Assembly: GCA_030425385.1 (NCBI GenBank) | Contig: JAUIAH010000001.1 | Location: 248,001 to 312,000, forward strand | Direction: 5' to 3' | DNA from: Verrucomicrobiia bacterium | GTDB taxonomy: Bacteria; Verrucomicrobiota; Verrucomicrobiia; Verrucomicrobiales; DEV007 | Length of the DNA: 64,000 bases | Shown here: piece by piece, positions 39,058-42,707 of the stretch | Layout: every line of letters begins with the position of its first letter | Numbering within the stretch: position 1 is the stretch's first letter | Notes under the pieces: generated by a model | The model's input: only the letters and a program-made list of their open reading frames with translations | Told to the model about the DNA's origin: nothing | The model's database searches: none | Translations under genes and position numbers: made by a program

Positions 39058-39543
39058 TTAGTCTTCAGGTTTCAACCGATATGTCAGAATCTGGAGCGCA
39101 TCTTCGGCGGTGAATCGGCCGATCGCACCGCAACTGTAGACGGAGATATCGACAAGACCTTGGGGATCGATCAGAAAGCCGGTGGCATGGAGATAGGTGC
39201 CGTCGTCAGAGTAGAAAGCCCCAAACCGCTTGGCAAATGCTTCGGGGCGAATCCCGTAGCCGACTGGGAACACCACTCCGGAAGCATTCACTGTCTTGCG
39301 GGCGTCTTCGAGCGTTTCTGAAGAGGCAGCCACAACCTGCACCCCTTGCGCTTCGAACTCGGCGTGGCGTTCTTTGAAATCAGCCAACTGCTGACGGCAG
39401 AAAGGTCACCAATAGCCACGATAAAGGAGCAGCACCGTCCATTTGCCGGTTGGCAATGTTAGTTGCTCGCCATTTGTGAGATCAAGGTTAAGAGACGGAA
39501 AGTTATCGTCGGAATCGAGTTTGCGGGATTCTGTCTGAGGCAT
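39058..39543 (-). CDS. Peroxiredoxin-like selenoprotein (in-frame TGA as Sec46)
   Basis: A 161-residue AhpC/TSA-fold protein if TGA at 39406-39408 is read as selenocysteine. Before it: TVLLLYRGYW. After it: PFCRQQLADFKERH in the same frame. Relatives have a cysteine at exactly this position (YRG-x-W-C-PFCR), so the TGA replaces the peroxidatic Cys, giving a U-x-x-C redox motif (Sec46, Cys49). The rest (VVAASSETLEDARKTV, GFLIDPQGLVDISVYSCGAIGRF) is intact to TAA. A hairpin with GU in its loop begins 10 bases after the TGA. ATG 39543 is chosen by family fit. It lies 20 bases after the alcohol dehydrogenase stop, so both probably share TetR control. Ordinary gene callers split it in two. Confidence 0.88.
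39372..39405 (-). promoter_or_regulatory. SECIS-like hairpin for the Sec46 codon
   Basis: Directly after the TGA: an outer stem CTTT/AAAG, an internal loop, and an upper stem GTCAGC/GCTGAT (one G-U) closing the loop AGTTG. The loop begins 17 bases after the TGA, within the 16-37 base range usual for bacterial SECIS elements, and contains GU as SelB needs. Drawn by hand, not folded by program. Confidence 0.6.
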
Positions 39544-41299: not shown

Positions 41300-41734
41300 T
41301 CATTCGCAGCCCGTGACGTAGATAAGGAGGGCCAATCGGCCTGTCCAGAGGATGGTGCGGATCCAGTTGGTCCTGATCAGTATTCGGATGTGGGGCTCCG
41401 ACCAACCGCCTTCCAATTGCCGATGCAGGGGCACCTGCACAAGGAATGTCGAAAGCCAAAGAAGAAGGGTGATCGATGCTGCCACGGCCAGGGGAAGCCG
41501 AAGACCATGCTGATCAAGCTGCCATACGGACCATCCCGAGAGGATCAGTTCCACGATCATCAGAGGAGCGACGATACATCCGATGCCGAACGAATGATGT
41601 TGGTGATATCGTGAAAAGTCCGCAGGCCTCACATTGAGAAATTGTGGATACACCACCAACTGAACAAGCCAGATGATTCCCGTCATGGCCGCGGCAACGA
41701 TCACTTGAACCTGCAAGAGGATAGTCGATTCCAT
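41300..41734 (-). CDS. Four-helix membrane protein
   Basis: A 144-residue protein with predicted helices at about 8-27, 45-68, 75-95 and 120-140 and a conserved-looking loop (YHQHHSFGIG). It starts at ATG 41734, 28 bases after the stop of the membrane selenoprotein on the same strand, so the two are probably co-transcribed. An upstream frame start (41803) overlaps that gene and adds sequence that is not membrane-like. No family named. Confidence 0.75.
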   Translation of the reverse strand: MESTILLQVQVIVAAAMTGIIWLVQLVVYPQFLNVRPADFSRYHQHHSFGIGCIVAPLMIVELILSGWSVWQLDQHGLRLPLAVAASITLLLWLSTFLVQVPLHRQLEGGWSEPHIRILIRTNWIRTILWTGRLALLIYVTGCE

Positions 41735-41762: not shown

Positions 41763-42707
41763 TCATGAGGCAATCTTCGCGGCAAATGATCGCACGTCTC
41801 CATGATCGGCTACGTGCGCCGCCCGATGCGCGTGGACGATTCGCTCCTTAGAAACGAGAAACATGCCTGGCATCTGTAAACCATCACCACGGAGCTTCCC
41901 TCCTCGGTTCCCTTTGAGCATTGCTTGAATCCCTCTCCACCATACCGGCAACCCTAACAATTGCCTTAGAGTTCCTTTCGCGAGGTCAAAGCTGCGGTAG
42001 AGTTCGCAGTGCGGGTCACTGATGTGATCGATGTAGCCGTAGTCGATGCCCTGGATCAATGGAGGAAGCTCTTGATCATGATTCATGTGCACCAGGACAA
42101 GGCGCCAGCCCTGTTTCTCAATCCACTCTCGTTGCTCGGTCAACTGAACGAGCTGCTCGCGGCAGAAGATTCAGCCATAGTGTCGTAGGAAGCACAAGAG
42201 GACAGGCTGCTTATGCGAGGCTTCTGCCAGTGAGTCTCCGTTTGCCAAGTGATAGGAATGGAGCGCCTCTTTCATCGGCATGGCTTCAGCTCTTTGGTAG
42301 GCTCGCGTCACCATTCGACGAAACGCCGCCAGGAGGATGAGACCAAAGGGAATCCACCAGATGAGATCGTTGCTAAGAATGATGAGCCCCGCCTTTGGGG
42401 TGAACGTGCCATCATAGAGGGCCTTGGCGAACCCGAGCGGCCCGAACACTTTTCCCATTAGGCCGACGAGGACGATTGGCCAATGGCGCATAGGGTCAAC
42501 GGCCGCAATGGCGTAACCGACTCCGTAAACGCCAACGATCATCCCCACGCACTGCCAAATCTCCGGATACATTGGCCGAGGCATGCCTGCCCAATTGAAA
42601 TAGGCGTTTGGGAATAGCACGACCCAAGCTCCCCACAGGAGATTGTAGAAGGCCGCCGCCAGCAATACCCAAGTCATCCAACGGGGGGGTCTCGGTTTGG
42701 TGTCCAT
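41763..42707 (-). CDS. Membrane-anchored peroxiredoxin-like selenoprotein (in-frame TGA as Sec179)
   Basis: A 314-residue protein if TGA at 42171-42173 is read as selenocysteine. Residues 1-132 form a four-helix membrane domain (AAFYNLLWGAWVVLFP, MIVGVYGVGYAIAAVDP, NDLIWWIPFGLILLAAF). Residues about 155-314 are an AhpC/TSA_2-like domain: PVLLCFLRHYG, the TGA, then IFCREQLVQL, in one frame. Relatives carry FLRHFGC-x-x-C here, so Sec replaces the first Cys of the C-x-x-C motif (Sec179, Cys182). Downstream landmarks PGMFLVSKERIVHAHRAAHVADHGD are intact. The chosen start is ATG 42707; an upstream in-frame start (42740) is less likely. A second selenoprotein lies 2.2 kb away. Gene callers split this gene in two. 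Confidence 0.85.
42134..42153 (-). promoter_or_regulatory. SECIS-like hairpin for the Sec179 codon
   Basis: Eighteen bases after the TGA, GCTCGTT pairs with GAC-C-GAGC (one bulged C, one G-U) around the loop CAGTT. GU lies 27-28 bases after the TGA, within the bacterial SECIS range. The loop shares AGTT with the hairpin of the other selenoprotein. Drawn by hand. Confidence 0.5.

Follow-up and report, generated by a model that had tools for sequence, protein, structure and literature searches.

A predicted selenoprotein joining a four-helix membrane domain to a SelL/SelU-like redox domain in a Verrucomicrobiia bacterium

The 64,000-nt stretch of Verrucomicrobiia DNA analyzed here (the window) carries a minus-strand gene that forms a single 314-residue frame, from an ATG at 42707 to a terminal UGA at 41765-41763, with an in-frame UGA at codon 179 as its sole interruption (Table 1). 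The codon lies in the context FLRHYG-U-IFCREQL, and the coordinates, the frame and the placement of TGA at the first Cys of a C-x-x-C motif are as a preliminary description of this DNA had them. That description had also placed the UGA in an AhpC/TSA_2-like domain, which agrees with matches of the sequence after it to PF13911 and PF00578 and with a score above the curated cut-off for NF040769 (SelL_rel_redox). A small membrane protein encoded directly downstream probably belongs to the same operon, and a companion AhpC/TSA-type gene with its own in-frame UGA lies farther along the same strand.

Table 1. Features of the fusion gene and its surroundings, in window positions.
Feature	Position	Strand	Basis or remark
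Fusion of four-helix membrane domain and SelL/SelU-like redox domain, predicted Sec at codon 179	41763..42707	-	Full-length homologues
UGA predicted to be read as Sec179, first position of U-x-x-C	42171..42173	-	Cys here in homologues
Four-helix membrane domain, residues ~9-133	42309..42683	-	AlphaFold pLDDT 88; conservation in 79 sequences
Redox domain NF040769 SelL_rel_redox, residues 157-308	41784..42239	-	144.1 bits; curated cut-off 120 bits
SECIS-like hairpin GCUCG-U-UC-AGUU-GA-C-CGAGC, loop AGUU, starting 17 nt after the UGA	42134..42153	-	
Small membrane protein, 28 nt downstream of the fusion	41312..41734	-	Homologues adjoin Cys fusions in other phyla
Companion AhpC/TSA-type protein, separate gene, UGA at first position of U-x-x-C	39058..39543	-	

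Homologues at 74% (the orthologue in genome G002) and 51% identity align with the frame over its entire length, and Cys occupies the Sec179 column in 77 of the 77 aligned fusions from outside the genus. A comparison of the region after the UGA between the window gene and the G002 orthologue gave a dN of 0.206 and a dS of 3.36 (dN/dS of ∼0.06, NG86), and by this measure the sequence beyond the UGA is under purifying selection. The UGA is shared by three separate assemblies of one genus (the window genome, G002 and G001), with intact frames in the window and G002. We reject sequencing error because the same UGA recurs in separate assemblies; the second UGA gene nearby, from which the preliminary description argued against such an error, is confirmed here. 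We likewise reject a split into two genes at this point, since the Cys homologues read continuously through the site.

The genome from which the window derives (8.0 Mb, 95.5% complete) encodes what is needed to decode UGA as selenocysteine. It contains a tRNA-Sec with anticodon UCA (65.1 bits; called tRNA-SeC (tca) by ARAGORN) together with SelA, SelB and SelD, each scoring over its cut-off, and these make up a complete Sec decoding set. The SelD gene itself has an in-frame TGA, in CG-U-AAK, and the companion gene in the window places its UGA in the motif YRGYW-U-PFCRQQL. Two additional open reading frames (G000:C28:21929-22225 and G000:C19:14452-14745) have weak matches to SelL-related/AhpC families and one in-frame TGA each, suggesting from sequence that the selenoproteome of this organism is larger. 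Elsewhere in the genome, ∼20 tRNA genes, many of them low scoring, are densely packed on one strand (G000:C38:43578-50804) in a run that resembles a tRNA array or a degenerate tRNA cluster.

A hairpin with a 5-bp stem, a bulge, a 2-bp stem and an AGUU loop begins 17 nt after the UGA in both intact fusion genes (window and G002) and in three genes for related stand-alone redox proteins. G028, a genome from another family, has an equivalent hairpin built from other base pairs and three nucleotides closer to the UGA. When these hairpins were aligned, 83.7% of cells were paired and three pairs had changed on both sides, compared with 22 to 41% paired in slid controls. The covariation score was matched by 1 of 500 shuffles. 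In this analysis G028 is counted at the common columns and not at its own shifted position. Relative to synonymous recodings, the hairpin was stronger than average in six intact genes (fractions of 0.007 to 0.10, modest for any one gene); in the companion gene it was not clearly stronger (fraction of 0.16). A scan of the window at Rfam gathering thresholds returned one tRNA only and no match to a SECIS family.

The two fusion copies in G001 (L027/L028 on G001:C414 and L019/L033 on G001:C218) are damaged: one is frameshifted near its start, the second is broken by stops, with an in-frame TAA recorded, and both have lost the hairpin, which is not stronger there than in synonymous recodings (fractions of 0.73 and 0.85). 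Either pseudogene decay or assembly error could account for them. These copies, and the occurrence of the membrane domain by itself in open frames of 174 codons in genomes G015 and G028, are what might be expected if the UGA were a real stop, the membrane protein the sole product and the downstream part a decaying remnant or a separate gene. We consider this highly improbable, given the purifying selection past the UGA, the complete Sec machinery, the precise coincidence of the UGA with the catalytic Cys column, and the many uninterrupted Cys fusions alongside intact frames in the window and G002. By all the computational tests applied, the product is a true selenoprotein.

All 79 of the aligned fusion members match NF040769. 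The closest solved fold to the predicted structure is human prostamide/PGF synthase (PRXL2B, SelU3; Z of 16.2, rmsd of 2.7 over 154 aligned residues), followed by ordinary peroxiredoxins (Z of 13.6), and a profile search of the PDB recovered prostamide/PGF synthase as the sole family (HMM E of 2e-8). The G[C/Sec]-x-x-C of the query superposes on the GC-x-x-C of this enzyme, aligning the two active sites, and we set aside a classical peroxiredoxin identity in favor of the better-fitting PRXL2 fold. Position 1 of the motif is invariably C or U, whereas position 2 is C or T and, in stand-alone Sec forms, also V or R; this pattern indicates that position 1 is the conserved nucleophile and that resolution can come from elsewhere.

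Several described families resemble this domain in part. The NF040769 model covers the ∼170-residue redox domain alone, whereas the window protein adds the four-helix membrane domain and Sec. SelU3 is the prostamide/PGF synthase that reduces prostamide H2, and in animals SelU alternates between Sec and Cys (PMC3473315); the window protein shares the catalytic C/U-x-x-C position but is bacterial, membrane-fused and only 16% identical in the structural alignment. SelL, to which the redox domain is related by its NCBIfam name and through a thioredoxin fold, contains a pair of Sec residues with two residues between them (PMC3316567). The window protein instead has a single Sec, with C at the second motif position (V, R or T among its stand-alone relatives), and no U-x-x-U of the SelL type was present among the redox domains found. 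Prx-like prokaryotic selenoproteins (PF00578 with UxxC or UxxU; cd02970 with UxxS) likewise combine Sec at the first motif position with a peroxiredoxin-like fold, but none of the 119 prokaryotic selenoprotein families inventoried in 2026 (PMC13188914) has an entry that mentions this membrane domain.

The preliminary description proposed one polypeptide with an N-terminal four-helix membrane domain, and both the structure prediction and the continuity of the Cys homologues bear this out. AlphaFold, run with 79 sequences, modeled the whole protein with a pLDDT of 87.9 as helices at residues 9-31, 49-70, 76-99 and 104-133 followed by a thioredoxin-like domain. A structure search with the whole model returned matches to the redox domain alone. 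The membrane domain was also folded separately (pLDDT of 88.1). Foldseek found no match to the isolated membrane domain at an E value of ≤0.001, and the top rows of a PDB fold search were assorted four-helix proteins (CD9, EBP, NACHO, sigma-2 receptor, VKOR-like), from which, with no confident match among them, we do not read kinship. For the DoxX/BphX-like membrane family there were weak profile matches only, with BphX in 13 of the 79 members at E values no better than 0.013. Mean K+R counts were higher at the N terminus (0.92), in loop 2 (1.25) and after helix 4 (1.48) than in loop 1 (0.65) and loop 3 (0.37), a bias that favors an N-in/C-in topology and probably puts the redox domain on the cytoplasmic face.

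The membrane domain is the better conserved half of the protein (mean majority of 0.69 versus 0.62 for the redox domain). More than 30 of its residues are invariant across 79 sequences, including the polar residues Y21, N22, Y47, Q52, Y65, H75, K86, N113 and D114, and C53 is near-invariant. The domain could be a mere anchor for an ordinary peroxiredoxin-like enzyme, with no ligand or catalytic role, and the existence of stand-alone redox domains does imply that the redox domain can work without a membrane part. We regard this as unlikely: so many invariant residues, Q52, H75, K86, N113 and D114 among them, are unexpected of a simple anchor, as is the occurrence of the membrane domain by itself.

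VKOR-thioredoxin fusions also combine a four-helix membrane bundle with a thioredoxin-fold domain. The protein could be a selenium-dependent thiol-disulfide oxidoreductase in which the membrane domain trades electrons with a quinone or a partner in the style of VKOR or DsbB and the U-x-x-C handles protein disulfides. The U-x-x-C/C-x-x-C motif, the greater conservation of the membrane domain and the weak VKOR-like matches of the bundle (Z of 7.8, among other folds) are compatible with such an enzyme, and the title of Shchedrina et al. 2007 (cited in PMC3473315) refers to a diselenide bond in the redox motif of the SelL family. Against it, the membrane bundle has neither a conserved C-x-x-C nor a conserved cysteine pair in the 79 sequences, C53 being the one conserved Cys, and it has no confident structural match to VKOR; relatives have T, V or R in place of the second Cys of the redox motif; and the nearest fold is PRXL2B/PGF synthase, which is neither thioredoxin nor DsbA. 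On balance, this activity is a possible one that we hold less probable than a peroxidase.

A homologue scan that used one genome per species recovered at least 566 relatives. The best 80 of these are loci that span the fusion completely or for the greater part and belong mainly to Verrucomicrobiota, Planctomycetota and Acidobacteriota, with single contigs labeled Bdellovibrionales and Chitinophagales. Among the matches listed, the Cys forms are continuous without a stop (the G001 contig aside), and the 95 distinct fused rows comprise 78 with CxxC, 13 with CxxT and 3 with UxxC, while one matched the pattern elsewhere in the domain. Both Cys and Sec occur at codon 179; among these fused rows Sec is confined to the three from the window genus, with Cys in homologues outside it, making the fusion common and its Sec form rare. 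In a sample of 388 genomes of the phylum, the family was present (E of ≤1e-22) in 23 and the UGA form in the window genome only. One locus (L057) carries a second, partial redox domain (CxxC) in frame with the fusion.

UGA occupies the corresponding position in stand-alone relatives encoded in G001 (UxxR), G002 (UxxC), G003 (UxxV) and G028 (UxxT), and stand-alone Cys redox proteins were also found. In a tree of 110 redox domains, all of them non-eukaryotic, the Sec-containing members from the window genus, fused and stand-alone, grouped together on a zero-length branch (support of 95/0), which fits either loss of the membrane domain by the Sec stand-alones or its gain by the fusion. Phage records yielded no match and plasmid records a single partial one: an unannotated stretch of a Streptomyces chartreusis plasmid (L170 3001-3348; NZ_CP108841.1) matches only the membrane domain, at 37% identity, so that the membrane family may reach Actinomycetota.

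The suggestion that a membrane-anchored, selenium-dependent architecture may be undescribed holds in part. The Sec form is supported by the sequence tests, the architecture is absent from the 119-family inventory (PMC13188914), and our search of open-licence papers, where absence is not proof, found none on the fusion. Selenium is not a defining feature of the fusion, however: versions with Cys are widespread, and further relatives with Cys are stand-alone proteins. What is already known is the redox domain, as a curated NCBIfam family, and Sec in such a fold.

The neighborhoods of relatives give some indication of physiological context. Of 70 loci, 12 have a renalase-like FAD oxidoreductase (Pfam Amino_oxidase/NAD_binding_8) immediately beside the fusion, and genes of the photolyase family (10 of 70), TIGR03643 (7 of 70) and DPRP (6 of 70) occur near it, with at least one of these four within 3.5 kb in 19 of 70 loci. 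Photolyase, SDR and FAD oxidoreductase genes are grouped in LitR-associated light-response regions of Pseudomonas (PMC9758184). Sigma-70-like genes are found near the fusion in 7 genomes; at six loci (L032, L091, L098, L108, L110 and L111, from several planctomycetes and the Sec-bearing G002) they lie directly upstream on the same strand. In G002 the Sec fusion directly abuts its upstream sigma-70 gene, and genes for DUF2071, SDR and FAD oxidoreductase come after it. Of the 70 fusion loci, 13 contain a homologue of the small membrane protein (the window member being assigned by eye), in 10 of them adjacent and on the same strand, and the small protein of the window has a weak, below-cut-off match to Anthrone_oxy (E of 0.0075). 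The neighbors of relatives suggest a role in light or photo-oxidative stress. The window locus has no photolyase or FAD oxidoreductase next to the fusion, and the link to light thus rests on relatives, with G002 the only one among the Sec forms.

We favor, with moderate confidence, the hypothesis that the protein is a membrane-anchored, cytoplasm-facing selenoperoxidase of the PRXL2/SelU type that acts on lipid peroxides or endoperoxides during photo-oxidative stress, for which we infer the substrate, reductant, topology and role of the membrane domain. SelB and Sec-tRNA(UCA) would read UGA179 as selenocysteine, aided by the downstream hairpin, to yield four membrane helices joined to a SelL/SelU (PRXL2)-type thioredoxin-fold domain, probably on the cytoplasmic side. 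Nucleophilic attack by Sec179 on a peroxide, or on a lipid endoperoxide of the kind handled by human PRXL2B/PGF synthase, would give a selenenic acid. Cys182 would then resolve this intermediate, a step for which relatives without that Cys would rely on an external thiol (thioredoxin or a low-molecular thiol). The conserved membrane domain, with its invariant polar residues, may present lipid peroxides or bind a lipid- or quinone-like ligand. Such a protein would form part of the light/photo-oxidative stress response of many bacteria, using Sec in the window genus and Cys in most relatives.

A bolder version, which we find doubtful, makes the protein a photo-stress selenoperoxidase that removes lipid hydroperoxides or endoperoxides directly in the bilayer, a bacterial functional counterpart of GPX4/SelU, and has the UGA double as a switch governed by selenium. 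When selenium is lacking, translation would stop at codon 179 and leave the membrane domain alone, a form known as a separate protein in other genomes.

The finding extends the bacterial selenoproteome by a membrane-anchored architecture. It also points to an uncharacterized family, common in Verrucomicrobiota, Planctomycetota and Acidobacteriota, whose conserved membrane domain has no confident known fold and whose possible part in stress from light or singlet oxygen, suggested by the gene neighborhoods of relatives, can be tested. The natural Cys/Sec pairs within this one family would allow a test of what selenium adds. Should the protein reduce lipid peroxides in membranes, it would count as a bacterial equivalent of GPX4 or prostaglandin F synthase in animals.
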